Positions 1,129 to 42,726 of a stretch of 64,000 bases of DNA are shown here, piece after piece (position 1 is the stretch's first letter; each line of letters starts with the position of its first letter). The notes beneath the pieces are model-generated. The model worked only from the letters and a program-made list of their open reading frames with translations. It was not told the origin of the DNA and made no database searches. The position numbers and the translations under genes are program-made. The DNA comes from Elusimicrobiales bacterium (GTDB lineage Bacteria > Elusimicrobiota > Elusimicrobia > Elusimicrobiales > UBA9959), in contig JAQTZB010000004.1 of the NCBI GenBank assembly GCA_028688015.1, forward strand, positions 62,001 to 126,000, written 5' to 3'.

Positions 1129-2373
1129 TCAGGCCCGCTCTCGCCGTTCGACAGTGAGCGGGAAGGACATAGCCAGCCATGCGCCGGAAAATATCACGCC
1201 GAGGGCCGGGTAGAAGCCCGGGGCTACGGTGCCCAGCGCCTGCAGGCCCGACACCCAGAGAGCCGTCAGCCCCTTGGCGAAGCGGTAGGTAAAGGCCTCG
1301 GCCACCTGTTTGGCGCGGTAGCGCGTGTCGTAGGAGAACGGTATGTAGAGCGTCTCCTTCGAGGCCCGGAAGATGGAGTAGTCCATCCCCTTGAACAGCA
1401 GGAAGGCGGCCGACGCCAGCCCGAGGGCCGGGGCGAAGAACAGCAGCAGGCACGACAGGATATGCACCGCCGGGATGGCCGTCAGGATGGCGCGGCGCGG
1501 GATGTAGCGCAGCAGCAGCGGCGTGGCGAGGAACTGCATGGCGAAGGAGAACACGTTCACGTACATCCAGAAGTTGCCCAGGTAGGCGGTGCGCTGGTCC
1601 TTCAGGGGCATGAACTCCTGCACCAGCTGCGTGAAGCGGAAGTCCAGAGCGGTGGCCACCACCTGCGCCGAGAAGATGATGAAGGCTATCAACAGCACGG
1701 TGCGGTTCTCGCGCAGGATGCTCAGGTGCAGGTGCCCCTTCCTGCCCCCCGCCTCCTCGGCCGAAGGCGCGGGCTCGCCCGCGCTGTTGTAGCTCAGCCA
1801 GGACAGCGCCGCGGCGGGCAGGATTATCGCGGCGGAGAAGAGCACGAAATTTTCCGTGCCTATCCCCATCACGTAGCGCGCCAGCAGCCAGCCGCCGGTC
1901 AGCGACCCCAGCGCGCCGAGGCCGGCCACGGGCCCGTTGAAAACCTTGCCCTCCTCGTCTTTAAGCACGCTGTTGATGAAGGACCAGTACTGCTCGGAGA
2001 TTATAACGACGTAGGATTCCTTGAAGACCAGCAGCAGGAAAGCCAGCCAACGGCCAGCGGTATCGAGCAGGGCCCAGGCCAGCGTCATGAAGGCCGCGCT
2101 GGCCAGCATGGAGACGGCCATGGCCTTCTTGGCCCCCACCGCGGAGAGCAGGCGGCCGTAGGCGTAGATCATGGCGGCCATCATGAAGGGCACGCAGGCT
2201 ATGGCGTAAGGCTTGGCGGCCGCGCCGAACTTCTCTATGAAGATGGATTCGGCGGGCGAGCGGATGAACTCGTAGCCGCAGAACAGGAACATCGCCGACA
2301 GGCCCGCCAGGAAAACGGCCGAAGCCACGTGCCGGCCGCGCTCGGTCCGAAGTGCCGCGAGTAGTGTGCTCAT
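1129..2373 (-). CDS. MFS-fold membrane transporter resembling TLC nucleotide (ATP/ADP) translocases
   Basis: A 414-residue polytopic inner-membrane protein with about twelve hydrophobic segments. The segment VIISEQYWSFINSVLKDEEG, followed by FNGPVAGLGALGSLTGGW, recalls the conserved core of the TLC/Npt family (ADP/ATP and NTP/NDP exchangers) and related MFS proteins. It is shorter than the roughly 500 residues usual for Npt proteins, so it could transport something else. ATG 2373 is taken because it begins just before the first membrane segment. The frame is open to 2508, but that extension (MEAPPRFFRR...) is basic, Arg-rich and not membrane-like. It is a single-gene unit sharing the terminator at 1085-1110. 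Confidence 0.55.
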   Translation of the reverse strand: MSTLLAALRTERGRHVASAVFLAGLSAMFLFCGYEFIRSPAESIFIEKFGAAAKPYAIACVPFMMAAMIYAYGRLLSAVGAKKAMAVSMLASAAFMTLAWALLDTAGRWLAFLLLVFKESYVVIISEQYWSFINSVLKDEEGKVFNGPVAGLGALGSLTGGWLLARYVMGIGTENFVLFSAAIILPAAALSWLSYNSAGEPAPSAEEAGGRKGHLHLSILRENRTVLLIAFIIFSAQVVATALDFRFTQLVQEFMPLKDQRTAYLGNFWMYVNVFSFAMQFLATPLLLRYIPRRAILTAIPAVHILSCLLLFFAPALGLASAAFLLFKGMDYSIFRASKETLYIPFSYDTRYRAKQVAEAFTYRFAKGLTALWVSGLQALGTVAPGFYPALGVIFSGAWLAMSFPLTVERRERA

Positions 2374-2608
2374 GGTATGACAATTATCCCAAATATGAAG
2401 TGCCGAGGGAACACCCGCGACGCGGAGGATGAGTCTTTTCAGATGAAAATACAGGTTTTCAGTTGAAAGTTTCCTCCTCCGGCGGAAGAAGCGCGGCGGG
2501 GCTTCCATCAGGGGAACCGCGCGGCCGCCGCGCGCCGCAGGTTGGCATAAAAATTGCTCCGCTTAAGGCAACGGAGACAGATTTCGCGGTTTAGATCATG
2601 GAGACAAT

Positions 2609-3187
2609 ATGAACAAAAAGCAGATCCTCATAGCGGTTTTAGCGGCGGCACTGGCGCAGGCCTCGCTGGCGGGCGCCCGGGCGGCCAGCTTCGATTTTGA
2701 CGGCAGGGGCGGCGCCGCGGTGTCCCTGAGCGGGCTCGCGGAAACGGCGGCCGAAGGCCTGCCGGAACCGGTCCTGGAGCGGGCCGACGAGACCCTGCGC
2801 GGCGCGCTGGCCGCGCCCACGACTTCCGCCCTGGCCCTGGCTTCCTTCAGCTACGACGAAAGCTCCAAAGAGTTCAAGCTGCGGTTCGACACCGAGCACT
2901 CTGTAAACTACTGGGGCTGCCGGATAGAGATCAGCGTGGAACTAATGCGCGACGGCCTCTTCGACGCTTCCCTGGGAGTGCGGACCTACGAGTTCCCCCT
3001 GAACTGGAACCTCGGCAACCCCGCCATCACCTTCAAGGAAGCTGACTTCGCTCCCGCGAAGGAAGAGGGGCGCGCCAAGACTAAAAAGCTGTACGTGAAA
3101 TGGGGCTTCAGGGTGGTCAAGAGCACGTTCTACAACAAAGACTACGTGGACATGGGACACAGCGCCTCGCTGCAGGTCCCCAAGTAA
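2609..3187 (+). CDS. Secreted protein of unknown function
   Basis: 192 residues. A clear signal peptide (MNKKQILIAVLAAALAQASLAG, cleavage near ARAAS) is followed by a low-complexity Ala/Glu/Leu stretch and, from about residue 80, a beta-rich domain with conserved-looking aromatics (NYWGCRIEISVEL, YEFPLNWNLGNP, LYVKWGFRVV). It has one cysteine after the signal, at WGC. GGAGAC lies 7 nt upstream of the ATG. I do not recognise the family. The gene stands alone between a divergent transporter and a convergent aminopeptidase. Confidence 0.75.
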   Translation: MNKKQILIAVLAAALAQASLAGARAASFDFDGRGGAAVSLSGLAETAAEGLPEPVLERADETLRGALAAPTTSALALASFSYDESSKEFKLRFDTEHSVNYWGCRIEISVELMRDGLFDASLGVRTYEFPLNWNLGNPAITFKEADFAPAKEEGRAKTKKLYVKWGFRVVKSTFYNKDYVDMGHSASLQVPK

Positions 3188-3200
3188 ATCCCAAAAACAG

Positions 3201-3228
3201 AACTCCCCGGCTTGCCGCCGGGGAGTTT
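3201..3228. terminator. Intrinsic terminator hairpin
   Basis: AACTCCCCGGC, loop TTGCC, then GCCGGGGAGTTT, between two convergent genes (ends 3187 and 3252). The stem is strong with short A/T flanks, so it probably serves both directions. Confidence 0.75.
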
Positions 3229-3251
3229 CGCTTTGCACCGGCCGCCGGCGC

Positions 3252-4457
3252 CTAGTATTTGAACTGCCCCTTCTCGTAGAGCGTGATCCGGCGCCCGCTC
3301 TTCAGCGTCGCGGTCACCTTCTTGTCCTCGGTGTTGATCATGTCCCAGTGCACGGCCGAGTCGTTGTAGCCCAGGCCGGCCTTTATAGGGCCGGTCAGCT
3401 TGGCCGGGTTCCCGGTATAGGTATCGGTATAGGCGTTGCCTATGGCCACATGGCAGTTGCCGTGTTTGCCGCCGTGGTTCTCGTCGAACAGGATATCCGC
3501 CATGAAGCGGTCGATCTTGGAAAAGCGCTTGTCGGTCAGCGAGTACTCGCCCAGCTGCGAGGCGCCCTTGTCGGTGGCCATGATCTTCTTGACATAATCC
3601 TCGCCCTTGGCGGCGGAGACCTTAACTGCGCGGCCGTCCTTGAACTCCAGCCTTATCTTCTCTATGTAGTTGCCGCCGCGGAAGGTCGGGAGGTTGGCGT
3701 AGTAAACGCCCTTCGTGCCGCGCCAGTCCGGCGAGGTGAAGATCTCGAAGCTGGGGATATTGTGGCCGCTGACGCCCAGGAACTTGCGCTTCTCTCCCAG
3801 TTTCACCTCAAAGTCCATGGAGGCGGATTCGGTGCGGATGGTGTCTATGCCCAGGCCGTTGATCCACTTCTTTATGGCCATGGTGTCCTTGTAGATCTGC
3901 CCCCATTTTTTTGCGGGGCTGGGCTCGTTCAGGTAGCAGGCCTTGGCTATCTGCGCGGCGTAGTCCTTTATGGAGAGCTTGGCCTGCTTCGCCAGCTCCG
4001 CCGTGGGGTAGGTGCACAGGGTCCAGGAGAACTTGCCCTTCTCTTCGCGCTCGTCACGGATACGGAACAGCGGCTTGCGAGCTATGGCCACCTGGGACTG
4101 GCGCTTCGTGTCTATGCCTTTCAGGTTGGTCAGCGAGGCCGGCGCGTTGATGTAGACGTAGCCGTTGAGGTGCTCGTAGAGGTCCTTGTCCCAGGAACCC
4201 AGGAAGGCGCGCTGCTTCTCGTCGGAAAACTCGTAGAAGCCGCGCTCCAGGGCGGGGCTCGCCAGGAAGTTGAAGACGACGTTGAACTTGCGCTGCACCA
4301 GCTTGCGGTAGACTATCTCGCCCAGTTCGCGGGCTTCCAGGTCGCAGCGCAGCAGGATGGTATCGTACTTCTTGAAGGGCTGCTTGCGGGCGGTGGTCAG
4401 CCCCCAGACCAGCGCGTCGGCGTATTTCTCGAGCTGCGTTTTGGAAAATACTCCCAT
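3252..4457 (-). CDS. M29-family metallo-aminopeptidase
   Basis: 401 residues, the usual length for the AmpS/PepS/AmpT group (peptidase family M29), cytosolic two-metal aminopeptidases that release N-terminal residues. The expected ligands are all present with family spacing: E238 (in FEIFTSPD), E304 (GEYSL), H336 and Y343 (HVAIGNAY), and H370 with D372 (HWDMI). The 66-residue gap between the two glutamates and the 7-residue His-Tyr gap match the family. There is no signal peptide. The Shine-Dalgarno GGAGG lies 5 nt before ATG 4457. It is transcribed alone, divergent from the small secreted protein at 4560. Confidence 0.9.
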   Translation of the reverse strand: MGVFSKTQLEKYADALVWGLTTARKQPFKKYDTILLRCDLEARELGEIVYRKLVQRKFNVVFNFLASPALERGFYEFSDEKQRAFLGSWDKDLYEHLNGYVYINAPASLTNLKGIDTKRQSQVAIARKPLFRIRDEREEKGKFSWTLCTYPTAELAKQAKLSIKDYAAQIAKACYLNEPSPAKKWGQIYKDTMAIKKWINGLGIDTIRTESASMDFEVKLGEKRKFLGVSGHNIPSFEIFTSPDWRGTKGVYYANLPTFRGGNYIEKIRLEFKDGRAVKVSAAKGEDYVKKIMATDKGASQLGEYSLTDKRFSKIDRFMADILFDENHGGKHGNCHVAIGNAYTDTYTGNPAKLTGPIKAGLGYNDSAVHWDMINTEDKKVTATLKSGRRITLYEKGQFKY

Positions 4458-4559
4458 GTAGGCCTCCGGAGAACAGTTTTAGCGTCCGTAAAATTATATT
4501 TTATTGCCGGCGCGGCGGAAAGGCCGGGATTTTGTATTATGTGAAAACCGGGAGGGACT

Positions 4560-5114
4560 ATGACTTTAAAATTCCTGTTCGCCCTCATTTTCGCGGCGCC
4601 TTCTTTCGCCGCAGCGCCGCAAACAGGGACGGCCGCGCCGCAAGCCGGCATTACCCGGGCCGAGGCTGAAGCCATCGCCAGGGCCATCGCCGAACCCGCT
4701 GTCTTCGTGGCGCGCTTCGGCACGGCCGCCGCGCTGGCCCACGCCAGGCTGGCGCAGCAGCTGCGGGAGCGCTTTCCCCGCCGCGAACCGCCGGACCAGG
4801 GCTTGGTGAGGGTCTGCATGCGCCTGACGCTGCGCGTGAACAACGCCTGGCTCAACACCATCTCAGGCACGCGCATTTATCCCGGGCAGGAGGATTTCGA
4901 CCGCTTCGCCGCGGCGGCGCGCCTGGCGCTGAAGAAATACGCGGACGGCCTGGACAAGGAGCACAAGTGGGGCCCGGTGGACGACAAGGCCGCCCAGGAC
5001 ATAGTGGACCGCGAGCTGCGCCGCGGCCTGAACCGCCTGCCGGTGTACCGCGGCCGCGGCCTGCCGCCCGAGCCGCCCCCCTCCGCGGAAGAGAACGCGG
5101 CCCTGCCCCGCTGA
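4560..5114 (+). CDS. Small secreted protein of unknown function
   Basis: 184 residues. A short signal peptide (MTLKFLFALIFAAPSFAAA) is followed by an Ala-rich linker and an alpha-helical region (ITRAEAEAIARAIAEPAVFVAR, RLAQQLRERFP). A middle segment, CMRLTLRVNNAWLNTISGTRI, has the only cysteine. The C-terminus is Pro/Arg-rich. GGGAGG lies 5-6 nt upstream of the ATG. I recognise no family. It is followed after 90 bp by the DUF4105-like gene on the same strand. Confidence 0.7.
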   Translation: MTLKFLFALIFAAPSFAAAPQTGTAAPQAGITRAEAEAIARAIAEPAVFVARFGTAAALAHARLAQQLRERFPRREPPDQGLVRVCMRLTLRVNNAWLNTISGTRIYPGQEDFDRFAAAARLALKKYADGLDKEHKWGPVDDKAAQDIVDRELRRGLNRLPVYRGRGLPPEPPPSAEENAALPR

Positions 5115-5132
5115 CAGGGCAGGGACCCAGCC

Positions 5133-5181
5133 AAAGGGCCTAGACGGGCCTGGGAACAATGCTTCCGGAAAGGGGGCCCTT
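5133..5181. other. Imperfect inverted repeat in the gap before the DUF4105-like gene
   Basis: CCAAAGGGCC is mirrored by GGGCCCTTGG with one bulge, enclosing an inner GGAA/TTCC hairpin. It lies between two same-strand genes, with no U-tract after it. It may attenuate or stabilise the transcript. Confidence 0.35.
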
Positions 5182-5204
5182 GGCACCTGCTATAGGAGCG
5201 CCGC

Positions 5205-6329
5205 ATGCGCTATCCTATAGACATGCTAAAGACCTTTTTACTGACCATCGCCTTCGCAGTGCCCGCCGCAGCCCAGACCGCGGATTTTTCAGCCCTCCAG
5301 AATTTCGACGCTTCGCAGATCCAGGAAATCCAGCTTCCCGACCTCCAGCTGCCCTCTGATAAGAGCTGGGGCGTGAACTATATCCTCAAGGGCGTGGTCT
5401 CCGTCACCGAGGCCGGCCCCCTGCTCAATACCATAGACGGCCGCCTCTTCAAGCTGGACCTGAGCGCCAGGAAAGCCGCTAAATTCGACGGCAAGACCGT
5501 GCTGGTGGAAGCCCAGGCCAAGCAGGCCGACGACTTGGCCCTGCTGAAGGTAATGGAAATTTCGGAGTACGAGCCCCAAGCCGGAGAAGTGGTCCCGCCC
5601 CCCTACCAGCCGCGCCGCCGCACCGCCACCCTGCTGGAGAACAAGGACGGCCGCATGGTGATGGGGAATGTCCGCATGTCCTCCTCAGAGGTCCCCGCCG
5701 TCAACTCCTACGAGTGGACCACAATGACGATAAAGCCGGAGCTCATCAAGAACATTTACTTCATCAAGAAGCCCTTCAAACCGGAGATAGTGGCCGCGCA
5801 CTCCTTCTTCGTCTTCACCTTCGAGAAAGGGGGCCTGACCGACGCCAGCGGCAAGCAGCCCATGGCGCTGGCCCTGAGCATAGAGGGCAAGACCCGCGTG
5901 GGCCAGAGCTTCTCCCCCCTCACCGGGCTCAAGCGGTCCTTCGGCATCAACTGGTCTCTCTCCACCTGGGAAGAATACGCCGCCCGCACCATCCACGAGG
6001 AGAAAGGCCATCTGGTGCCTTACCCGGTGCTGCTCTCCCACGCCGAGAAAGCCGCCCTGCTGCGCGAATCCCTGACGCAGGCCGCGGTGGACCGCGAAGG
6101 CGAGTTCTACCACACCATCAAGAACAACTGCACCAACAACCTGCTCATCCTGCTCAACCGCGTGCTGCCCAAGGAGCGGCAGATAAAGCTCTGGACCATC
6201 CCGTACATGATCTACAATGTCAAGGCCACCATGCCCCTGATGGTTATCACCAACCTGCAGAAGCGCGGCATCCTGGGCGCAGAGTTCACCGACATCAACG
6301 CCCAGACCCTGCACACGCGCCTGCCTTAA
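5205..6329 (+). CDS. DUF4105 (Lnb-like) periplasmic protein
   Basis: 374 residues with a signal peptide (MLKTFLLTIAFAVPAAAQ, preceded by MRYPID). Residues about 80-145 form an OB-like stretch (KFDGKTVLVEAQAKQADDLALLKV). The C-terminal half carries the DUF4105 pattern: IEGKTRVGQSFSPLTGLKRS, HTIKNNCTNNLLILLNR, with a conserved Asn-Asn-Cys-Thr. DUF4105 is the N-terminal periplasmic domain of Lnb-like proteins and is thought to be a papain/NlpC-like hydrolase fold; the NNC cysteine would be the nucleophile. AGGAG lies 7 nt before ATG 5205, which decides the start. The protein probably acts in the periplasm on peptide or lipoprotein substrates; this last point is inference. Confidence 0.65.
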   Translation: MRYPIDMLKTFLLTIAFAVPAAAQTADFSALQNFDASQIQEIQLPDLQLPSDKSWGVNYILKGVVSVTEAGPLLNTIDGRLFKLDLSARKAAKFDGKTVLVEAQAKQADDLALLKVMEISEYEPQAGEVVPPPYQPRRRTATLLENKDGRMVMGNVRMSSSEVPAVNSYEWTTMTIKPELIKNIYFIKKPFKPEIVAAHSFFVFTFEKGGLTDASGKQPMALALSIEGKTRVGQSFSPLTGLKRSFGINWSLSTWEEYAARTIHEEKGHLVPYPVLLSHAEKAALLRESLTQAAVDREGEFYHTIKNNCTNNLLILLNRVLPKERQIKLWTIPYMIYNVKATMPLMVITNLQKRGILGAEFTDINAQTLHTRLP

Positions 6330-6337
6330 GTTCTCGA

Positions 6338-6384
6338 CGCGCAAAAGAAAAGGCCCGGTCTCCCGGGCCATTTTCTTTTGCGCG
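6338..6384. terminator. Bidirectional intrinsic terminator
   Basis: A 21-nt left arm (CGCGCAAAAGAAAA then GGCCCGG), loop TCTC, and a complementary right arm with one bulged A. It lies between the convergent ends at 6329 (+) and 6391 (-), and A/T tracts on both sides make it bidirectional. Confidence 0.85.
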
Positions 6385-6390
6385 CGGCGC

Positions 6391-9033
6391 TTACACCTTC
6401 ACGCGCTTGTCGATGACTTTGCGGATCTTGCCGGTGCGCTGGATGCGCTCTATAGCATTGGGCTTGAGGACCTCGATGACGGGCTTATCCAGCCACTTCA
6501 TGCGCACGCTCTCGTGCAGGTCCTCGCAGTGCCGCTCCAGTTCGCGCCACAGCAGGTCGCCCAGCTCGCCGGCGCGCGCCAGCGCGGCAGGATCCTTGAC
6601 CTCGGCGCGGATGGCCAGCGTGTCGCGGTGGCCCTTCTTGGCTATCGCCACCTGGAAGTTGAAGGAGAGGTCCGGCACCTTGCCGATGGCCTCCTGGATG
6701 TCGTTGACGAACAGATGCGCGCCGCCTACATGGATGCGGTCGTCGCAGCGGCCGAGGATCTCGAACAGGCGCTCACGGCGGCCGCAGGCGCAGGACTTCA
6801 TCAGCCAGCGGCCCAGGTCACCCACGCGGTAGCGGATTATGGGCATGTGCTTCTTGGACAGCCCGGTCACTACCAGCTCGCCTATCTCCCCGTCCTTGAC
6901 GGGACGCAGGGTATCCTGATCAACGAACTCAATGAACTGACTGGAAGTGAACAAGTGGTGGTGGCCCTTCACGCAGTGCGGACACTGAAAGCCCACCACG
7001 CCGGCGTCGGCGGTGGCGTAGCCGGCCGAGCGCACCTTGACTCCGGGGAAGACGCCCTCGAAAAACTTGACCATCTCTTCGCCCACGTATTCTCCTCCGT
7101 AGAAGATATGCTTCAGCGGCACCTTGAATTTGCCCTGGCCGGCCCGGATGAACTCCGCCATCTTCACCAGGAAGGACGGCAGGCCCACCACGGCCGTCAC
7201 CTGGAAATCCTGCAGGTAGCCCGCGATGTTCTCCAGCGGCAGGTTACTGCCTACCGGCACCGAGATGGCCTTGGTGTAGGAAATGGCCTTCTCGACGGAG
7301 AGCCAGCTGGACCAGAGGTTCCCGGCCACGAAGAGGTTGGCTATCACGTCGCCGTCGCCGAGCCCGGCCGCCTCCATGGAATAGGCGAGCGTGCGGCAGG
7401 TGTGGTCGTACTCGTGCTGGTCGTAAAAGACGTATTTAGGCTGCCCGGTGGAGCCGCCGCTGGCGAAAAAGATGCCTCGCTGCACCTTGCTGGTCAGCAG
7501 GTCCGCGCTGTCTGGCGGCGTGTTCTCCAGCACATGGTGCTTCTCCAGGAAGGGCACCTGCCGGAAATCCTCCAGTGAAACTATCCGCGGCACGCCCTTG
7601 AAGTGGCGCCCGTAGAAAGGGCTGCGGCTGCGGGCGTGGTCCACCAGCTCGCTCAGGCGGTCCAGCTGCGAGGGCCGCTCCTCTATGGGCAGCCAGTTCA
7701 CCAGCGACATCATGGGGAAGATCCCGTCGTGCGGCGAGCCGTTGGACTCCTCGAGCATCTTGCCCAGGCGCACCACGCGCGCTATGCCGGCGGGCCCGAG
7801 CGTCTCCATCACCTTCTTGCGCTCTATCGAGCCGCCCACGCCCACGGTCTGGATATAGCCGCGCAGCGGCAATATCAGGTCGCGCACAGCCTCCAGGGTC
7901 TCCACGGTCTTGACGTAGAGCACGCGGTTGAGCGGCGAGACGCGGTAAACCGGGGCCTTCTCATAGATCACCGTCCAGTCGGTTTTGGGGGCCGAACTGA
8001 CGAAAGAAGCGTTGCCCAGCGCGGCGTCCACCCGGGCCAGCTGGCGGGCCTTGTTGATCTCCACCATCTCGTCGGGCGACAGCCTGCCGGGCGGCAGCTC
8101 GGCCGCCAGCTGCGCGAAATGTTTCTTGGCGCAACTCAGGAACTCGGCGGCGTATTCCTTATGTTTTTTGGCCGGCGCTATCAGGTAAAGCGTATGGAGC
8201 GACGAGCAGGCCGCCTGGTCCCACAGCGAGGCGTCCAGCGCGGCGCGGCGGGCCACGTTGTCCATGCCCTCGTGCTTCACGCAGCTCTCGAAGACCACGC
8301 CCACGCTGGTCTTGGGGCCGAAGCCCTCCACGCGCACGTCGATGGGCGCGATCTTCCTGTAGGCCTGCACGGCGTCGTAGCCGCCCCAGACGAACACGGC
8401 GTTGACGTGCTTCAGCGCGGCCTCTTCCAGCCCCTGCGTGCCGCCTTTCCAGCTCAGCACGGCGGCGGACTTGGCCAGCACGCCCTTGGTGTCGACTTCC
8501 TTCAGCGCGTCCATGAAGAGATTGATGAAGTTGGAGCCGGACGAGGAGATCTTTACTATGTTGACGTTCTTGGTCAGGAAACCGATCACCATGGAGTCCA
8601 GGATGCCCAGGAACACGTTGCCCGCGCCCACGTGCAGCACCACACCCTTGGGCATGGCGCGGATAAGGCCCTCGTAGCCGCGGCGCTCCACCGACGCCTC
8701 CAGCGCGTACGGGAGGAACAGCTCCATGTTCAGGCGCTTGTTCAGGGCCTGCTTGCCCAGCAGTTCGGGGATCACGTCCAGGCTCTTCTCAATTACCGGG
8801 GGAGAGAAAGAGATGTGGTCCTTCAGGTGGGCCAGCGCCGCCTTGCGGTAGGGAGTGCCCTTCTCGAAGAGTTTCCCGGCCCGGGCCAGCGTCTCGATGA
8901 TATACTCGCGCGGCACGCTGCGCAGCAGCTCGCGCGCGGCCTGCGCCTGCAGGCCTATCTTCTCAAGCTCAGCCGGGGTCCAGCCGGCCTTGTCGGAGAC
9001 CTTGCCGAATAAATAGGTGTTGTGTATTTTCAT
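6391..9033 (-). CDS. LuxC-like acyl reductase fused to PaaK-like adenylate-forming domain
   Basis: 880 residues in two halves. Residues about 1-440 match LuxC (fatty acyl-CoA/acyl-protein reductase, aldehyde-dehydrogenase-like): an NAD(P)H-binding stretch MPKGVVLHVGAGNVFLG and the acyl-accepting cysteine C276 in DQAACSS. Residues about 455-880 match PaaK-type acid-CoA ligases: RSPFYG near 469, P-loop-like SGGSTGQPK near 525, GEIGELVVTG, RYRVGDLG, a CACG motif, and GRCDDRIHVGG. LuxC would reduce an activated acyl group to an aldehyde; the PaaK half would activate a carboxylic acid as acyl-AMP. ATG 9033 overlaps the luxE-like TGA by 4 bp (ATGA), implying translational coupling. The fusion itself is unusual to me. 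No luciferase is nearby, so the role is not light production. Confidence 0.85.
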   Translation of the reverse strand: MKIHNTYLFGKVSDKAGWTPAELEKIGLQAQAARELLRSVPREYIIETLARAGKLFEKGTPYRKAALAHLKDHISFSPPVIEKSLDVIPELLGKQALNKRLNMELFLPYALEASVERRGYEGLIRAMPKGVVLHVGAGNVFLGILDSMVIGFLTKNVNIVKISSSGSNFINLFMDALKEVDTKGVLAKSAAVLSWKGGTQGLEEAALKHVNAVFVWGGYDAVQAYRKIAPIDVRVEGFGPKTSVGVVFESCVKHEGMDNVARRAALDASLWDQAACSSLHTLYLIAPAKKHKEYAAEFLSCAKKHFAQLAAELPPGRLSPDEMVEINKARQLARVDAALGNASFVSSAPKTDWTVIYEKAPVYRVSPLNRVLYVKTVETLEAVRDLILPLRGYIQTVGVGGSIERKKVMETLGPAGIARVVRLGKMLEESNGSPHDGIFPMMSLVNWLPIEERPSQLDRLSELVDHARSRSPFYGRHFKGVPRIVSLEDFRQVPFLEKHHVLENTPPDSADLLTSKVQRGIFFASGGSTGQPKYVFYDQHEYDHTCRTLAYSMEAAGLGDGDVIANLFVAGNLWSSWLSVEKAISYTKAISVPVGSNLPLENIAGYLQDFQVTAVVGLPSFLVKMAEFIRAGQGKFKVPLKHIFYGGEYVGEEMVKFFEGVFPGVKVRSAGYATADAGVVGFQCPHCVKGHHHLFTSSQFIEFVDQDTLRPVKDGEIGELVVTGLSKKHMPIIRYRVGDLGRWLMKSCACGRRERLFEILGRCDDRIHVGGAHLFVNDIQEAIGKVPDLSFNFQVAIAKKGHRDTLAIRAEVKDPAALARAGELGDLLWRELERHCEDLHESVRMKWLDKPVIEVLKPNAIERIQRTGKIRKVIDKRVKV

Positions 9034-10199
9034 AGCATCGTCGACGCGGAGATGGCACAGCCCTTTAGTTTTGTAACTCCGGCGCGGCCCTTGATCTCCA
9101 GCACCGGGCCCGGCAGGCCGCAGGCGCACTTGGGGCGCACCAGGCCGAAATCGGACGAGAGCACCGACAGCGACGGGTAGCTGGCCAGGTAAGGCGTGAT
9201 GAACTGCAGCAGCCCGGTCTCGCCGAAGCCCAGCGGCTCGAGCGTGCCGGGGTGGCGCGCGATCACGCGGCCGTAATTGGGGATATGGAAGTTGCCCAGC
9301 CGGCAGTCCACGTACGGCACGCCGTGCTCCACCATGCCGAACAGGTCGCGCACATTGGCCACGGGCACGCCCAGGTTGTCGGCGAGGATGCGGCGGTACA
9401 CCTGCTTGTCCAGCGCCTCGTCGGCCAGGGTCTTCCAGCCGCCGCCGGTGACCACGGAGGACTCCTTATTCAGGCGGGGATAGCGCCCGTAGCGCTTCTT
9501 GAATTCCTCGGTCAATTTCAGCGCGAAGGCCGGGAAACCCACCAGCCGCACCAGCGAGCCCGCGGCCTCGAAGCGCTTCAGCGCTTCCACCGCGCCGTCT
9601 ATGTCGAAATAGAAATCCTTCTTCTCTTTGCTCCAACGGAAGGTGTAGAAGATCTCCCCTTTCTTGGTGAAGCCGGTGAGCAGTTTGTCCGTCCAGGCGG
9701 TGCCCAGGTCTTTGGCCACCTCGGGGTCGTAGGTGAAACAGATATAATCGTGGGCGCGTTCCAGGTCCGTCAGGCCCAGCCCCTCGAAAACTTTCCAGGC
9801 CATGCGGCGCACCCGCATCAGCGAGCCCTTGTCCAGCTGCATGCGGGAGCGCTGTCCCGACGTGCCGCTGGACTTGAGTTCAAGCGCTATCTGGGAATAA
9901 GGCAGCGTGGTCAGGTCGCGCTCCTTCAGCGCGGCCACGAACAGGAACGGGATCTTCGCCACGTCCCGCTCGGTCTTCACCGAGGCCGGGGAGAACTTCT
10001 CGGCCCTGTAGAGCGCCTTCAGCACGGGCGCGCGGCGCCCCTGGAAGTCCAGCGCGGCGCGCATGGCGGCCAGGAAGGCGCGCGAGGTTTTGGGCGAGTA
10101 GTCGAAGGCCGCCGTCTCGAACAGCGCGTCCATAGGGGCGCGGCTCTTCAGCGGCTTGTAAAAGGGCGGCAGCTTGTCTTCTACTGAAAGGTCGGCCAC
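9030..10199 (-). CDS. LuxE-like acyl-protein synthetase
   Basis: 389 residues, close to Vibrio LuxE (about 370-380). LuxE activates a fatty acid with ATP and carries it on a C-terminal cysteine before passing it to LuxC. Visible here: ALELKSSGTSGQRSRM (adenylation loop), VTGGGWK, DLFGMVEHG, and a C-terminal LKGCAISAS in which C381 is the likely acyl carrier. A CxC pair (CACG) precedes it. The start is GTG 10199, supported by an AGGGGGAG Shine-Dalgarno in the 10-bp gap after the GNAT gene. It is the middle gene of a three-gene unit and would deliver acyl groups to the LuxC half of the next product. Confidence 0.85.
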   Translation of the reverse strand: MADLSVEDKLPPFYKPLKSRAPMDALFETAAFDYSPKTSRAFLAAMRAALDFQGRRAPVLKALYRAEKFSPASVKTERDVAKIPFLFVAALKERDLTTLPYSQIALELKSSGTSGQRSRMQLDKGSLMRVRRMAWKVFEGLGLTDLERAHDYICFTYDPEVAKDLGTAWTDKLLTGFTKKGEIFYTFRWSKEKKDFYFDIDGAVEALKRFEAAGSLVRLVGFPAFALKLTEEFKKRYGRYPRLNKESSVVTGGGWKTLADEALDKQVYRRILADNLGVPVANVRDLFGMVEHGVPYVDCRLGNFHIPNYGRVIARHPGTLEPLGFGETGLLQFITPYLASYPSLSVLSSDFGLVRPKCACGLPGPVLEIKGRAGVTKLKGCAISASTML

Positions 10200-10209
10200 G
10201 GGTCTCCCC

Positions 10210-11409
10210 CTATTTCTGCTCGGTCTCGAACACCAGCTCTATGTAGTTCTCGCGCCAGAGCTTCAGGTATTCCTTCAGGAAGTTCCGGTAGAGCGAGATG
10301 ATCTTGACGTTGCGGAAGTCCAGGATGTCGAAAGTGCGCGAGAACACCACGCAGTCGTAGCGCTTGTCCTCCATGCGCTTGGCGCAAGGGAAGTAGGCGC
10401 TGGGGATAAAGCGCGCGTCCAGCGCGTCGCGCTGCAGCTCCGGCGAGTAGGCCTCGATGATGACCTCGACGTAGGCCATGTCCAGCTGGCTGACCTTCTG
10501 CGCCACGCTCTCGAGCACCACGGCGAAGCTTTTCTCGTTGGTCACCCCGCCGACCACCACGCTGTACTTGTCCTTCTGACTGTAGGTCAGGTAAACCTCG
10601 GTGCCCTGGTCAGGGGTGATCAGGATCAGGTTGGGCTCATGAAAAGGCATGAAGATGCGCTCGAAGAAGCTGTTGCTCCTGGTCTTCTTCCAGCGGTTCT
10701 TGATGAACTCCGTCGCGGTGATGGTCTCGAAGTTCAGCAGCGGTATTTTCTGCTTGTGGTCGCTGTACATTCCCCGCACGTCGCTCACCTGCGCGGGCTC
10801 CAGGGCCTTCACCTGGCCGCGCACTATCTCGTAGAAAGGCGCTATCTCGGGAATGATGACGGGCGTGGTCCGGCGGCGCTGCATGGCCCGCTCGGTGAAG
10901 TAGCCGGTCAGGCAATGCGTCTCGTTGTCGTGCACCTTGTGGGTGTTGGGGAAGATGCCCAGCTTGATGAAGCCCAGACTCTCGGTCAGCTTCTGCGGGG
11001 CGTGATTGGCGGTGCGGGTGGTGGCGTAAACCAGGTCCACGAGGTCCTTGGTTATCGTAATGTCGTCGAGCACCAGTTTCATCATGGTGAAGGCCAGGTC
11101 GTGCTTGCGGAACTCCTGGCTGACCACGGCGCCGAAGGCCTTGGAATTGCGGTAGAACAGGTCCACGGCGTAGACCAGGCTGCCGATGATGCGGCCCTGG
11201 CATTCGGCCACCAGCCAGTAATACTCGTCGTCCTCTATGGCTCGGCGCATCTTGTCTTTGTCGGCGATGATCGGGATCGGGTAGGAAGCGCCGTAGACTT
11301 CCGCGTACAGCATCTGTATGCGGCGCATGTCGGTAACCCGGGCCAGCCGGATGTTGATATCCTGCTTGCCTTCGGTTTTTATGATCTTTTCTATTTTTTT
11401 GAGCGCCAT
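10210..11409 (-). CDS. GNAT-family N-acyltransferase-like protein
   Basis: 399 residues. The N-terminal 170 residues carry a GNAT fold pattern: INIRLARVTDMRRIQMLYAE, YYWLVAECQGRIIGSLVYAV, then a segment ending LTESLGFIKLGIFP in which an Asn/Leu-Gly-Phe turn is typical of motif B. Residues 180-399 are a second region rich in beta strands (EVYLTYSQKDKYSVVVGGV, YVEVIIEAYSPELQRDALDA) that could be another GNAT-like half. It is the first gene of the luxE-luxC-like unit, so it may transfer an acyl group made or processed by those enzymes. ATG 11409 has no Shine-Dalgarno but has TATATT at -13 to -8, suggesting a leaderless mRNA. An in-frame GTG at 11475 is possible but runs through that promoter-like sequence. 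Confidence 0.7.
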   Translation of the reverse strand: MALKKIEKIIKTEGKQDINIRLARVTDMRRIQMLYAEVYGASYPIPIIADKDKMRRAIEDDEYYWLVAECQGRIIGSLVYAVDLFYRNSKAFGAVVSQEFRKHDLAFTMMKLVLDDITITKDLVDLVYATTRTANHAPQKLTESLGFIKLGIFPNTHKVHDNETHCLTGYFTERAMQRRRTTPVIIPEIAPFYEIVRGQVKALEPAQVSDVRGMYSDHKQKIPLLNFETITATEFIKNRWKKTRSNSFFERIFMPFHEPNLILITPDQGTEVYLTYSQKDKYSVVVGGVTNEKSFAVVLESVAQKVSQLDMAYVEVIIEAYSPELQRDALDARFIPSAYFPCAKRMEDKRYDCVVFSRTFDILDFRNVKIISLYRNFLKEYLKLWRENYIELVFETEQK

Positions 11410-11416
11410 ATAATAT

Positions 11417-11422
11417 AATATA
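11417..11422 (-). promoter_or_regulatory. -10-like box of the GNAT-luxE-luxC cluster
   Basis: TATATT read on the minus strand lies at -13 to -8 from ATG 11409 within an AT-rich island. There is no Shine-Dalgarno between box and ATG, consistent with a leaderless transcript. Confidence 0.5.
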
Positions 11423-11480
11423 GTAAAAATCAGGGGCGTTCCGTAATGACTCCGGTCAGCAGGCCCCTGCGGCACAAATA

Positions 11481-12386
11481 ATGAAAAAAAACCTACTTTT
11501 ACTGATCTTGGCGGCGGGCCTGTCCGGCTGCGCCTCCTTCAACTCCGGCGACATACTGGTAGAGAGGGAAACCGCCCGCGCTATGCTCGACGACAAGGAG
11601 CTGGTGCCGTTCGCGGCGCTGGAGGTCTCCTGGCAGAACTTCCCCTACCGGGCGGCCACCGATTCCATAGGCGAGGGCTCCATCACCAACCCCAAGAAGC
11701 TCAAGCCGGTGCAGGTGAACGCCGAGGACGCCGACGCTTTCGCCCGCAGGGCGCGCGATATCTTCGCCAAGGCCGGCCTCTATGACCGGGCGCGCGGGCG
11801 GGGTACGCTGCGCCTGGAACTAACCAGCTTCGGCCGCTGGACCTACTCCGACCTGTGGCGCTCCTTCCTGGTAGACACCGGCTTTATCTTCATCCTGCCC
11901 GCCTCGCTGCACGTCAACTACTACCTTACCGCGGATTTCGCCGCCGCACCGGGCCCGGTGCGGGTGGAGACGGAGGCCCGCAACAAGACCACCTTCCACC
12001 TGTTCATGGCCCCGCTCTACCCTTTCCTCTCTCCGGGATCGCGCGAAAAAGGCCTGCTCAAGCAGATGTTGTGGCGCTCCGCCACCGACGTCTACGCCAG
12101 GCTGAAGGCGGCCGGGCCCGCCGCGGACCTGCCGCCCAAGCAGGCGCCCAAGGACGAGAAGCCCCCGCTGGGCGGGCCCCCGGTGCAGCCGGACCGCACC
12201 TGGCTGCCCGGCGAGCTCCCCGCCGCCGGGGAAGCTCCCGTTCCTGCCCCTGTAAAACCGGACCAGACCTGGGCCGTGGGCCAGCCGCTGCCTGCGGAAG
12301 TGCAGCCCGCCCCCGCGCCGCAGCCCCAGGCCGCGCCCGCCCCCGCCGCCGCGCCGCCCGCGGCCGACGAGACCCCGGACGATTGA
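11481..12386 (+). CDS. Lipoprotein of unknown function with Pro/Ala-rich tail
   Basis: 301 residues. MKKNLLLLILAAGLSGCASF is a textbook lipoprotein signal with lipobox LSGC (Cys 17). A folded domain of about 190 residues (LRLELTSFGRWTYSDLWRSF, TGFIFILPASLHVNYYLTADF) follows. From about residue 200 to the end the sequence is Pro/Ala/Gln-rich and contains two similar PDxTW motifs (PDRTWLPGE, PDQTWAVGQ). The tail may span the periplasm or bind the cell wall. It is divergent from the GNAT gene across a 71-bp AT-rich promoter region and ends at a strong terminator. The family is not recognised. Confidence 0.75.
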   Translation: MKKNLLLLILAAGLSGCASFNSGDILVERETARAMLDDKELVPFAALEVSWQNFPYRAATDSIGEGSITNPKKLKPVQVNAEDADAFARRARDIFAKAGLYDRARGRGTLRLELTSFGRWTYSDLWRSFLVDTGFIFILPASLHVNYYLTADFAAAPGPVRVETEARNKTTFHLFMAPLYPFLSPGSREKGLLKQMLWRSATDVYARLKAAGPAADLPPKQAPKDEKPPLGGPPVQPDRTWLPGELPAAGEAPVPAPVKPDQTWAVGQPLPAEVQPAPAPQPQAAPAPAAAPPAADETPDD

Positions 12387-12407
12387 CCCCCCCCCTTAAC
12401 CGCCAAT

Positions 12408-12435
12408 AAAAAACCCCGCCGAAGCGGGGTTTTTT
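12408..12435. terminator. Bidirectional intrinsic terminator
   Basis: AAAAAACCCCGC, tetraloop CGAA, GCGGGGTTTTTT. It is a perfect 12-bp arm between convergent genes ending at 12386 and 12451. Confidence 0.9.
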
Positions 12436-12450
12436 ATCGGCTTACGGGCC

Positions 12451-12978
12451 TCAGTTAGAGCCCTTGGACTCAGGCTTGGCCTCGGGCTTGGCTTCGGGCT
12501 TGGCTTCGGGCTTGGCTTCGGGCTTGGCTTCGGCCTTATCCGCCGCGGGCTTGGCCTCTTCGGCGGGCTTGGCCTCGGGCTCGGGCAGGTTGCCCAGCGC
12601 GTCCTTGGCGTCCTGCGCGAAGAAGCTCTCCGGGTTGTCCTTCAGGAACTGCTTCAGGGCGGAGCGGCCGCCCTCGGTGTCGCCGCCGACCACCAGTTCC
12701 ACGGCCGCTGTCAACTGCTTCTGCTCTTCGGCCAGCCTTTTCTCGGCTTTCTCGGAGACGCCGCCCTTCCAGTAGAGCGCGTTGGCGTCATCGCCCTTTT
12801 TGGCGCCGCGCACGGCCGCCACGGAGCTCACGCGGGTCTTGGACTCCAGCTTTTTGGAGATCTTGGCCTTTAGCCCCCTGAGCATGTCGTTATACCAGCC
12901 TTTCCAGTTCTTGCCTTCTTCGGCCCGCAGCGTGCCCGCCGCGAAGACCAGCGCCAGCACTATCAATAATTTTTTCAT
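12451..12978 (-). CDS. Small exported protein with EAKP-repeat tail
   Basis: 175 residues. A signal peptide (MKKLLIVLALVFAAGTLRAE) is followed by a charged helical domain (KNWKGWYNDMLRGLKAKISK, KRLAEEQKQLTAAVELVVGG) with a short TPR-like helix pair (GRSALKQFLKDNPESFFAQD). The last 45 residues are Glu/Ala/Lys/Pro repeats (EAKPEAKP...). Such tails often extend through the periplasm or peptidoglycan. GGAGGAT lies 8 nt before ATG 12978. It starts 19 bp after the large NHL/TPR protein and is probably co-transcribed and functionally linked with it. No specific family is recognised. Confidence 0.75.
   Translation of the reverse strand: MKKLLIVLALVFAAGTLRAEEGKNWKGWYNDMLRGLKAKISKKLESKTRVSSVAAVRGAKKGDDANALYWKGGVSEKAEKRLAEEQKQLTAAVELVVGGDTEGGRSALKQFLKDNPESFFAQDAKDALGNLPEPEAKPAEEAKPAADKAEAKPEAKPEAKPEAKPEAKPESKGSN
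12474..12535 (-). repeat. Tandem 12-bp coding repeat (EAKP)
   Basis: About five near-identical 12-bp units of the form GCTTCGGGCTTG on the plus strand, encoding EAKP on the minus strand. Near identity at the DNA level implies recent slippage expansion, so the tail length is likely to vary between strains. Confidence 0.85.
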
Positions 12979-12997
12979 ACCAGTATCCTCCGTAACC

Positions 12998-15900
12998 CTA
13001 CTTGGACAGCATCTTGGCCATATCGCCAAGCCCCTCTTCCAGCTTTACGGCCTTGTCGGCGAACATCTTCACGTCGTCCTTCTTGCCCAGCTTGGCGGAC
13101 ACCCGGGCCAGGTTCAGCCAGACCTGCCCGTCGAAAGGATCGGCCTTGGTCGCCTTGAAGTAGAACTCCTTCGCCTCGTCGTATTTGCCTTCGGTGAAGC
13201 GCAGGTTGCCCATGTTGTTCAGCGCGGCCGCGTTGAACGGCTCCTTCGCCAGGACCTTGCCGAAACACCCGGACGCCTCGCTGTAAGCCTTGTATTCGGC
13301 GTGGTAGATACCCAGCGTCAGGTTGGCCTCTATATCGTCGGGGGTTTCCCTCAGGATATTGCCGTAGTACCGCTTCAGATGGTCGTAGCGGGCGGCAGTC
13401 AGGGCGGCGATGGCGTCCTTGACGCGGGCGGTCAGGCCGGCCGAAACGTATTTATCCGTTTCGGTATCCGGCAGGGTGACCGGCTCGAACTCGTCGCGCG
13501 CGGTGCGCACGTCCACCACCTTCACGTCGGCCGCCGATTTGCGGTACAGGTCGGCCTCGTACACGATGGCGTCGTAGAAGCTCTTGCCCACCATGGTTAC
13601 CTCGACGCCCACCCAGAAGGTATTGTTGTACTTGATCAGGGATTCCTCGGGCAGGCCGACCGCGTTGGCGTCGGTCTCGCCGGTGTCGAACATCACAGCG
13701 ATGTGGCCGGGGTAATCCAGCAGCGCAGCGTGCAGGCCGGCCGACTCGAACAGCGTGGCGAACAGGGCGGTCAGGTCGTCGCAGTCGCCGCTCTTAAGCT
13801 TCAGCGTCTTGCGCGGGAACTGCACAGTGTCGAGCGCCAGACTCGCCGTGGACTTGACCGAGGCGTAGGAACTCACCGGGTCGGCCTGGTAGCCGACGCC
13901 GAGGTCGCCCAGTGCTTCCCAGAACAGCAGGCCCGTCAGCAGCTTCCCGTTGACATTCTCTCCGGCGTCTCCGATCTTCTTCTCCTCGCCCTGCGCGAAC
14001 GCCTTGAATTCCCCGACGGGGGTATCCTTGACGGTTATGAAGTTGGCCAGCCGCGCCGTGTTGTCCCAGACTATCGCGTCCCTGGAGAGCACCTTCATCG
14101 GCTTGTTCATCGTGAAGGTCTTTTCCTCGCCGTCCTTGTAGTAGGTCAGCGTCATCTTGCACTGGATCGGGGTGTCCTCGGTGATGTTGAGCACGCGGTT
14201 GCTGAACGTGGCGTAGACCGGGACTTCGACCCTGGCGCCGGCTTTCACGTCGCCCACTTCGTTGCTGCTGGCAGATTCCATGATCTCGCTGGAGAAGAAG
14301 GAGAGGACCACGTTGGAGAAGTCGCTGTCGGTGTTGTTCTGCACCGTCACGACGCCGATGGGCTTTTTCTTCTCCGACAGTGAGCTGTGCTGCTTGTAGT
14401 TGGCCGAGAAGATGTACTCCAGCTTGGGGGCTATGATCTCCAGCGGGGCGGCGTTCTTGCGCGGGCCCGCGGGCTCGGCGGAGGCCGCGGCGGCGGGAGC
14501 CGGCGCGGCGGGGCCCTTATAATCCGCTTCCACGGGCGCGGAGAGACCGCCCTGGATGCCGCTGACGGACACACCGGCGGCGGCGTAATAATACTTGGTA
14601 TTGGGGGCCGGCGGGGCGTCCTCGAAGGCCGCTTCCTTCGGGGCGGCTATCTCCACAAGGTCGCCGGGGCTGGTGCCGCGGAAAACCTTGAAACCGCTGG
14701 TCCAGGCGTTGGTCTTGGCCTGCCAGGAAAGCTTCACGCTCTTTTCGCCCGCGACGGCCGCGACCGCGGCCGGCGCCTCGGGCAGGTAGCTGATGTCGAA
14801 AGCCACCAGGCGGCCGGTCTCCAGGTCGGAGATGTAAACCTTGTCGTTGCGGAAAGCCAGGAACTGCGGCGCCCACAGCTCGCGCTCGCCGCGGCCCTTG
14901 GCGAAGAAGCTGGCCGTGAAGGCGCCGTTCTCGTCGAAGATCTTGACGTTGAACGCGCCCTTGTCGAGGATGTAGAAGAAGCCCTTGCCGTCGGTGGACA
15001 GCGAGGCCGGCTCCCGCAGCGCGCCCGAGTCGTCCCACAGGCGCAGGAACTTGCCCATCGCGTCGGTGACTATGACTTTCTTGAGCACGGAGTCCAGGAT
15101 ATAGACGTTCTTGTTCTCATCGCAGGCAACCGCCACCGGGCTCATCAGCGTGATATTGCCGATCTGGGGGCCTTTCGCGAACATGAACATGCCGTCGCCG
15201 GTGAAGGCCTTCAGCATCTTGTTCTTGGTGTCGGCCACGTAGATATTGCCCTTGGAGTTGACCGCCACGCCGGAGGGGGCGCGGAACTGGCCCTCCCCGG
15301 AGCCGCTCTCACCGAACATATTGTTGTAAGTGCCGTCGGGATTAAAGATCTGGATCCTGTCGTTGCCGGTATCGGCCACGTAGATCAGCCCCTTGGAGTC
15401 CACAAAAATATCCCTGGGAGCGCGCACCTGGCCCTGCAGCTTGCCTTCCTTGACCAGCGTTTTCTTGGAAGTTCCCTCTATCAGGGCGAGCTCCTTCGCC
15501 TCCGGCAGCCAGGCCACGACCTTGCCGTCCGGGGTAACCGTGAACACGTCGGCCTTGTAATTCATTTTGGCCACGGGGCCCTTCACCGCGAAGCGGTCCA
15601 GCAGCGTGGCCTGAGACAGTTCGGGGGAGCCCTCGCCGGCCCCTTCAACTTTGAGCAGCACCACTTTCTTGTTCTCCTCGTCGCAGAGGTAGAAGACTCC
15701 GTCGGCGCTGATGGCGATGTCGCGCAGGTTCTTGAATTCGCTCTTGCCCTTGCCCTTGGTGCCGAACTTGGCTACTTCGACACCGGCCTCGTTGAGCTCG
15801 TAAACCTTGCCTTCCTTGGAATTGATAACGTAGAGGAAGCCGAACTTGTCCACGGCCACGCCGTTGTTGGCCATCGGGTACTCTTTCAGCAGCTTGCCGG

Positions 15901-41892: not shown

Positions 41893-42726
41893 TCAGCGCG
41901 GCTTCCTCGCGGTTACTATTAGCGCCGAACCGGCGTAAACCCTGCCCAGCGTGGCCAGCCAGACGGCCTGCGCCAGCAGATAGTATAGAACTTTAAGGGC
42001 GGCGGTAAAAAATGTTCCAAGGCCGCCGCCGGAGCCATAGGGGTCGCCGGAAGTGGGCCTGGAGTTGCGCACGGAGACGTCCGTGAAGCCCGCCCGGCCC
42101 AGCAAAGCCCGCAGCGAGCCCGGCGTAAAATTAAAATTGTGGATGACGGAAGGGCGCGCGCCCAGGAACCTGAAAAAGCCGCGCAGCTCCAGCCTGTAGA
42201 GCGTCACGTGGAAAGCCGCGTTGAACTCGCGCAAATACAGCAGGCCGCCCGGTTTGAGCAGGCGCGCGGCTTCGGCGGCCGCAGCCGCCGGCGCGTCCAT
42301 CTGGCTAAACACCTCGAAGGCAGTAACCGCGTCGAAAGCCGCGGCCGGCAGGCCGGCCGCTTCCACCGGAGAAGTCTGCACCTTGAACCCGGCGCCTGCC
42401 GCGCGCGCCGCCAGCCCCGGCTCTATCTCCACGCCTTCGGCGCTCCAGCCGCGCGACGCGGCCGCGGTCAGGAACTCTCCGCCGGCGCAGCCGATATCCA
42501 GCAGGCGCCCCGGCCGTCCGGCCGCCGCGCCCAGCAGGTCCAGCGCCGCCTTGAATATTTTTTTCTTAGAGCTGTTGTAGACCAGCTCTTCCCTGGCCGG
42601 AGCGTAAGCCGGCGCGTGGAAAACCTTTTGAACCCGGTACGCCAGCCCGCAGGCGGCGCATTGCCGCAGCCCCGCCTCCGTTTCGCAAACGCCCCCACCA
42701 CAGGCCTGGCAGGCGGGTAGCGTCAT
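41893..42726 (-). CDS. SAM methyltransferase with N-terminal zinc-ribbon-like motif
   Basis: 277 residues. Four N-terminal cysteines, CQACGG and CAACGL, form a probable zinc knuckle (residues 6-27), as in the C-methyltransferase/UbiE-like sugar methyltransferases of glycan loci. The SAM motif is LLDIGCAGGEFLTAAASRGW; FDAVTAFEVFSQM and LLKPGGLLYLREFN follow. A C-terminal hydrophobic segment (VLYYLLAQAVWLATLGRVYA) may touch the membrane. ATG 42726 overlaps the TGA of the AsnB-GT9 gene by 4 bp. It is likely to modify a sugar made in this locus. Confidence 0.82.
   Translation of the reverse strand: MTLPACQACGGGVCETEAGLRQCAACGLAYRVQKVFHAPAYAPAREELVYNSSKKKIFKAALDLLGAAAGRPGRLLDIGCAGGEFLTAAASRGWSAEGVEIEPGLAARAAGAGFKVQTSPVEAAGLPAAAFDAVTAFEVFSQMDAPAAAAAEAARLLKPGGLLYLREFNAAFHVTLYRLELRGFFRFLGARPSVIHNFNFTPGSLRALLGRAGFTDVSVRNSRPTSGDPYGSGGGLGTFFTAALKVLYYLLAQAVWLATLGRVYAGSALIVTARKPR

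Follow-up and report, generated by a model that had tools for sequence, protein, structure and literature searches.

In luminous bacteria, LuxE and LuxC act together to reduce carboxylic acids at the expense of ATP and NAD(P)H. Adjacent genes for the same two protein families are found in a 64,000-nucleotide stretch of an Elusimicrobiales genome (assembly GCA_028688015.1, contig JAQTZB010000004.1, positions 62,001 to 126,000 of the forward strand; hereafter the window), where they form a single minus-strand unit encoding a GNAT N-acyltransferase, a LuxE-type acyl-protein synthetase and a LuxC reductase fused to a PaaK-type adenylate-forming domain (Table 1). Judged by gene content and order, these three genes are the short form of a wider five-gene cassette, which additionally carries a free-standing PaaK ligase and an exporter of the major facilitator superfamily (MFS) and which extends to other phyla. 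The window has the GNAT, LuxE and fusion genes adjacent on one strand, as in the cassette.

The unit shares with the luminous LuxC-LuxE reductase (7xc6) both families, both transfer cysteines and the adjacency of the genes, but differs from it in the PaaK domain fused to LuxC, the GNAT protein, the lack of a luciferase and scores far under the curated equivalog cut-offs. Phenylacetate-CoA ligase PaaK and PaaK-like single-domain ligases (4r1l; BagE/FevW; FlxY) have in common with the fused domain an adenylate-forming fold and ATP motifs; unlike them, the window's domain lies behind LuxC and falls below each curated cut-off. Two-protein acid reduction via acyl-AMP is also described for grixazone biosynthesis, in which GriC, an AMP-binding protein, and GriD reduce 3-amino-4-hydroxybenzoate (PMC10179220); there the substrate is an aryl acid, and the comparison is one of description rather than of sequence. 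Finally, the leupeptin pathway of Klebsiella (leupABCD with an adjoining transporter; PMC8283571), Xenorhabdus and Photorhabdus is reported to combine free-standing AMP-dependent ligases with a reductase and a transporter, the four leup genes lying within 5.8 kb, as does the Salmonella copy of the cassette described below. This likeness too is drawn from descriptions, and the window differs in that it has a single PaaK domain and lacks a linked exporter of the cassette type, whilst a leupA primer sequence fits none of the cassette N-termini looked at (see below).

The LuxC-PaaK fusion and its partner proteins

The LuxC half of the 880-residue fusion matches Pfam family PF05893 (237 bits over residues 43-447; 240 bits over bases 7693-8907) and is followed by an AMP-binding domain (48 bits) and an AMP-binding_C_2 lid (33 bits), all above their cut-offs. 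By sequence, the closest solved relative of the first half is the LuxC chain 7xc6_A (E 6.9e-20) and that of the second is chain 4r1l_A (E 3.3e-40). Of the curated families, PaaK stands closest to the fused adenylate-forming domain, which nevertheless reaches only 164 bits with TIGR02155 (phenylacetate-CoA ligase PaaK) against an equivalog cut-off of 646, and scores under every curated cut-off of the PaaK-like single-domain ligases BagE/FevW and FlxY. The LuxE protein matches Pfam LuxE over most of its length (126 bits, above cut-off), with the LuxE chain 7xc6_E as its closest solved chain (E 1.3e-19, by sequence). Against the models of the luminous proteins, LuxC scores 126 bits where the equivalog cut-off is 750 (NF052251) and LuxE 93 bits where it is 550 (NF052244). 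As these cut-offs are missed and bacterial luciferase (PF00296) has no match in the whole 3.34-Mb assembly, which is 97% complete, luminous-type fatty acid reductase was rejected as a family label. A structure model of the fusion (mean predicted local distance difference test score (pLDDT) 71, predicted template modelling score (pTM) 0.44, residues 427-532 nearly all below 50) was not used.

The GNAT protein is recognized by Pfam Acetyltransf_1 (27 bits, above cut-off), and its AlphaFold model (pLDDT 88.9, pTM 0.88), a confident one, matches the folds of N-acetyltransferases across some 160 residues; RimI is one of these and ArsN, at 25% identity, another. ArsN, an enzyme acting on the alpha-amino group of amino-acid analogues, is also its best sequence match (E 0.004).

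The genes are closely packed, with ten bases between the end of the GNAT gene and the LuxE start, and a four-base ATGA overlap joining the LuxE stop to the ATG of the fusion. An alternative GTG start at 9129 gives a protein of 912 residues in the mechanical list of open reading frames (ORFs); about 880 residues is the commonest fusion length among relatives of the same family. An earlier note on this DNA, made from the sequence alone, had described these three packed genes, the LuxC cysteine C276 in DQAACSS and the LuxE cysteine C381 in a C-terminal GCA motif, and had stated that no luciferase is present: all of this reads as written (C381 in KGCA), and the last statement extends to the entire assembly.

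Table 1. Features of the LuxE/LuxC-PaaK locus in the window
Feature	Position	Strand	Basis or remark
GNAT N-acyltransferase, 399 aa from ATG	10210..11409	-	Pfam Acetyltransf_1; C-terminal half without Pfam match
LuxE-type acyl-protein synthetase, 389 aa	9030..10199	-	Pfam LuxE; GTG start preceded by GGGGGAGA
LuxC-PaaK fusion, 880 aa	6391..9033	-	ORF and Pfam domains
LuxC acyl-thioester reductase domain	7693..8907	-	PF05893
PaaK-type adenylate-forming domain and C-terminal lid	6403..7674	-	TIGR02155, 164 bits
LuxC C276 codon, acyl-accepting cysteine	8206..8208	-	Alignment of relatives
LuxE C381 codon, cysteine presumed from luminous LuxE to carry the acyl group	9057..9059	-	Alignment of relatives
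Terminator-like hairpin 3' of the fusion	6352..6369	.	Common to the fusion and the convergent gene 5205-6329; weak

Conservation within the Elusimicrobiota

A survey of the LuxC family in 294 genomes of the phylum gave matches in 86. There were 67 single LuxC matches of at least 194 bits, and all but one of these (G158, 444 residues) lie in open frames of at least 700 residues. The window and 40 stretches taken from these matches make up 41 Elusimicrobiota loci, whose gene order was established by tblastn searches using cassette proteins of three origins. In all 41 the LuxC and PaaK domains lie within a single ORF; this and the long frames of the survey rule out an assembly artefact as the origin of the fusion: the fusion is real. 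LuxE lies directly 5' of it in 38 loci (L048, L053 and L054 are without LuxE) and GNAT is present somewhere in 38 (the exceptions are L034, which stops at a contig edge, L048 and L051). The order GNAT, LuxE, fusion is kept in 27 loci; a further four have PaaK, HATPase-GNAT, LuxE, fusion, MFS and GNAT in that order, and the others are mixtures. No free PaaK or cassette MFS matched inside the stretches of the 27 short-type loci. The ratio of non-synonymous to synonymous substitution rates (dN/dS), calculated against six relatives of the same genus, is 0.10-0.22 for the GNAT, LuxE and fusion genes, and all three are therefore under purifying selection. This selection and the retention of gene order in 27 of 41 loci argue that the unit is not a chance arrangement. 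Among the genomes listed, a LuxC match is present in all 23 of the same genus (the window's own included) and a LuxC gene in 43 of the 47 belonging to the family.

The predicted catalytic residues are similarly retained. Over an alignment of 123 fusions, in which four contigs were entered twice, C276 is a cysteine in 122 and a serine in L048, a locus that is also without linked LuxE and GNAT. In the PaaK half, D739, C748 and C750 are invariant, K869 is a lysine in 121 of the 123, and G526, G527 and G530 of the ATP site, to which D739 and K869 also belong, are nearly invariant; for L105 and L106 no fusion ORF was called. LuxE residues C381, C358, C360 and D350 are invariant in all 64 aligned relatives, an alignment that contains one contig twice and leaves out many Streptomyces LuxE proteins merged into longer ORFs by a simple gene caller. 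The earlier note had proposed a search for the same order in other genomes, and had allowed that the fusion might be artefactual, that the cysteines might vary among homologues and that the order might be kept in no relative; none of these three possibilities was borne out.

In a tree of 103 PaaK domains, for which the Streptomyces-type loci were thinned, the fused PaaK domains of the short type form a clade of their own (29 tips, support 1.0), whilst free PaaK proteins fall into two others, one of 29 tips (support 1.0) and a small one with four. Because the fused clade stands apart from the free ones, the window can be said to carry the fused ligase and to be without the free one.

A five-gene cassette outside the phylum

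A tblastn search of plasmid records with the fusion returned 344 records, five of which have a single place covering at least 80% of the query; most of the 40 best of the 344 cover about half of it. The annotation of Streptomyces sp. NBC_00158 lists, consecutively, PaaK, MFS, GNAT, acyl-protein synthase and acyl-CoA reductase genes. A Salmonella plasmid carries LuxE, LuxC-PaaK and PaaK genes and then a GNAT stretch, and a second plasmid, 99.9% identical, has a GNAT gene annotated at the same place. On the first (L073:12434-14690) the GNAT ORF call is in two pieces, followed by ORFs that resemble, by eye, an insertion sequence. A close-match search for the Salmonella copy in E. coli genomes gave no match.

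Public genomes were then scanned with an alignment of four cassette fusions, by which 143 relatives were confirmed and 80 loci kept, four of whose contigs were already part of the phylum survey. These loci are mostly from Streptomyces and relatives, with Massilia, Azonexus, Dokdonella, Lysobacterales and Competibacteraceae also represented. PaaK, MFS, GNAT, LuxE and fusion follow one another in that order on one strand in 55 of the 80, and, taken singly, 78 have LuxE, 75 a free PaaK, 72 a GNAT and 61 an MFS match. Among sampled genomes, the fusion occurs in 34 of 295 Streptomyces, the centre genome S. roseus included, and, at E 1e-60, in 1 of 369 Gammaproteobacteria, this being the centre genome itself.

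Seven loci (Dokdonella, Azonexus and kin) have LuxE, the fusion and PaaK without a GNAT match, and all seven carry instead a family represented in locus L111 by an RsbW-like ATPase joined to a GNAT domain; in six of them there is also a second family, to which a SpoIIE-like phosphatase of L111 belongs. The same families are present in L086, L088, L113, L149 and L157, Pfam having been run on the L111 members only. In L111 itself (10784-14208), an RsbW-like anti-sigma ATPase joined to GNAT accompanies a SpoIIE/RsbU-like phosphatase that bears HAMP and Cache domains, an arrangement like a partner-switch regulator fused to an acetyltransferase.

LuxE and LuxC genes also occur in another setting: a Streptomyces europaeiscabiei plasmid (L075:2944-11402) has annotated YcaO, metallo-beta-lactamase-fold, DUF692, LuxE and LuxC genes along with short ORFs, and here LuxE and LuxC sit in an apparent ribosomal-peptide cluster and may give a C-terminal peptide aldehyde.

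No description of the wider cassette, or of an arrangement of LuxC, LuxE and PaaK, was found in the open-licence full-text literature, a scope outside which most subscription papers fall. The joining of LuxE/LuxC acid reduction to PaaK ligation and N-acylation would appear, from the genes, to be a variant not found described.

Proposed chemistry

We favour, without calling it probable, a reading in which the cassette carries out a free-standing-ligase assembly, independent of non-ribosomal peptide synthetases (NRPSs), of an N-acylated aminoacyl or short-peptide aldehyde; we infer its substrates, step order and product from the gene inventory. In its favour are the company of LuxE, GNAT and free PaaK that the fusion keeps across the loci, the likeness of the GNAT protein to ArsN, and what is missing: the ten window ORFs tested with Pfam (1129-16489) include no acyl carrier protein (ACP), ketosynthase or glycosyltransferase, and the genome has neither a condensation domain nor a luciferase. 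The GNAT protein would use acyl-CoA to acylate an amino acid at its alpha-amine, and the PaaK domain would adenylate the N-acyl amino acid and couple a second amino acid to it, giving an N-acyl dipeptide, or would supply only the activated acyl form. LuxE would then adenylate the C-terminal acid with ATP, load it onto C381 and pass it to C276 of LuxC, which, using NAD(P)H, would convert the thioester into the aldehyde. In the five-gene form, which also has an exporter, the second PaaK ligase would form a further amide bond of the sort seen in acetyl-Leu-Leu-argininal; a single amide bond would fit the one PaaK domain of the window, and two such bonds the pair in the long form. The route suggested in the earlier note (activation, reduction and transfer, leading to an aldehyde or N-acyl metabolite) fits these findings but was incomplete, having missed the five-gene cassette with free PaaK and MFS exporter in other phyla; and where it spoke of an acyl or aryl acid, the genes would point more towards amide-bond formation and acid reduction in the style of peptide aldehydes.

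Possible relationship to leupeptin biosynthesis

Leupeptin is formed as a peptide acid, on which leupeptin acid reductase then acts, consuming NADH and ATP (PMC7714073), and in Xenorhabdus its synthesis involves separate AMP-dependent ligases and a reductase, with no NRPS (PMC11212599). The activities proposed for the cassette would cover what leupeptin needs, namely N-acyl capping, amide-bond formation, reduction at the C-terminal acid and, in the long form, export. The window resembles this type of pathway in domain content, with a free-standing type of ligase, an acid reductase and no NRPS; the condensation domain (PF00668) expected of an NRPS peptide-aldehyde pathway has no match in the genome. 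Streptomyces roseus ATCC 31245, which served as the leupeptin producer in one study (PMC10548850), holds all five cassette genes in order on one strand, with one fusion in its genome. No thioester-reductase domain above the TIGR01746 cut-off was found in this strain; the best match (66.5 bits) resembles, by eye, a short-chain reductase and has an AMP-binding gene next to it, and the two could themselves form an acid reductase. S. albireticuli also holds all five genes and S. noursei all but an MFS match; both are reportedly leupeptin producers, but the names were picked after the hit list and so provide no test. The link between leupeptin and the cassette is circumstantial. Only tentatively do we suggest that the five-gene cassette is an actinobacterial leupeptin-type pathway with LuxE-LuxC as the leupeptin acid reductase, and that the Elusimicrobiota form is a one-ligase version making an N-acyl dipeptidyl aldehyde, which the family would retain as a core and nearly universal metabolite.

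Several observations weigh against a peptide-aldehyde pathway, whether in general or of the leupeptin type. Known LuxE/LuxC enzymes use fatty acids and known PaaK enzymes aryl acids. The LuxC gene is near-universal in the window's family, unlike most genes of specialised metabolism, and such retention fits a core function as well as it fits a specialised metabolite. The short form is without exporter and second ligase: neither a second PaaK nor a cassette-type MFS was found linked within the part of the window that was searched, the genome yielded no further full-length PaaK of this kind, and its three distant MFS relatives lie on other contigs. Streptomyces leupeptin is listed among NRPS products (PMC10548850), and MKIAIHN, the translation of a primer for K. 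oxytoca leupA (PMC8283571), corresponds to no cassette N-terminus looked at. With the fusion in 34 of 295 Streptomyces genomes, moreover, one producer that holds the cassette is weak evidence. The leupA start resembles an ATP-grasp N-terminus, and this likeness and the primer mismatch suggest that the enterobacterial leup genes may encode different enzymes.

Alternative functions

Other roles were weighed against peptide-aldehyde assembly. The cassette could be a fatty-acid reductase serving lipid synthesis, with LuxE and LuxC making a long-chain aldehyde, PaaK activating another acid as its CoA thioester and GNAT transferring an acyl group, to yield ether lipids, waxes or N-acyl lipids. Characterised LuxE/LuxC enzymes do take long-chain acids, and the 43 of 47 LuxC retention suggests a housekeeping role; nonetheless we consider this unlikely, as both proteins score far under the long-chain equivalogs, the two PaaK proteins and exporter of the relatives fit it badly, and the ten window ORFs tested include no ACP and no lipid-synthesis family.

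Aryl-acid reduction in the manner of GriC/GriD, with PaaK or LuxE adenylating an aromatic acid, LuxC reducing it and GNAT acetylating an aromatic amine, is favoured by that precedent and by PaaK being the nearest curated relative of the fused domain. We think it quite improbable all the same, given a PaaK score of less than a third of the cut-off, the lack of any aromatic-precursor family among the same ten ORFs, and the superfluity of LuxE together with one or two PaaK domains in such a scheme.

Decoration of a sugar or flagellin, with LuxE/LuxC supplying an acyl group for a glycan as in the flagellin glycosylation islands of enterobacteria and Aeromonas, is very improbable: those islands carry luxC, luxE, an AMP ligase and a 3-oxoacyl-ACP reductase (PMC4875605, PMC7874193), but they also carry ACP and glycosyltransferase genes, of which there are none among the ten ORFs tested around the cassette, and the window's sugar-type genes begin at about 40.5 kb, some 30 kb away. 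An acyl donor for flagellin or O-antigen is accordingly not supported, with few flanks of relatives annotated for glycan genes. A literature search gave no paper for a possible Vibrio RfbN/tetronate precedent and no lead for the Vfm signal cluster of Dickeya, another candidate; an apparent link to solanimycin was discarded, the 'LuxE' match being an author name in a reference list.

Neighbouring genes

Within the window, a TLC-type transporter ORF (1129-2508, by Pfam) lies 4 kb from the cassette. Terminator-like hairpins, of which that in Table 1 is one, are weak evidence, as three sites were found in the region against 4.4 expected by chance. Among the sugar-type genes, a single ORF (42723-45653) appears to encode an asparagine synthase with a glycosyltransferase family 9 domain behind it.

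Peptidase-related genes occur near several copies of the cassette. An M29 aminopeptidase gene lies at 3252-4457 of the window, and the family is found near the cassette in 11 of the 41 Elusimicrobiota loci, which is probably a matter of general, wider synteny. A trypsin-like peptidase stands ahead of a long cassette in the Elusimicrobiota (L037:1880-4263); proteins ahead of the long cassette there and at L061:944-2020 have sub-threshold glutaminase matches (17 and 18 of 25 bits). Beside the cassette of Streptomyces sp. NBC_00158 (L072:11998-13365), three annotated peptidase-inhibitor I36 genes are consecutive. That nearby peptidases are targets of an inhibitor is suggestive only.

Significance

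These findings recast LuxE-LuxC from a curiosity of the light organ to the reducing end of a portable pathway, present in at least three phyla (Elusimicrobiota, Actinomycetota and Pseudomonadota) with no polyketide synthase or NRPS gene in the cassette. The cassette is a concrete candidate for the leupeptin genes of S. roseus, and the three-protein system of the Elusimicrobiota offers a defined setting in which to ask which acids a LuxC-PaaK fusion reduces. If the leupeptin-type reading were true, the enzymes of bioluminescence and of peptide-aldehyde synthesis would be branches of one acid-reductase machine.

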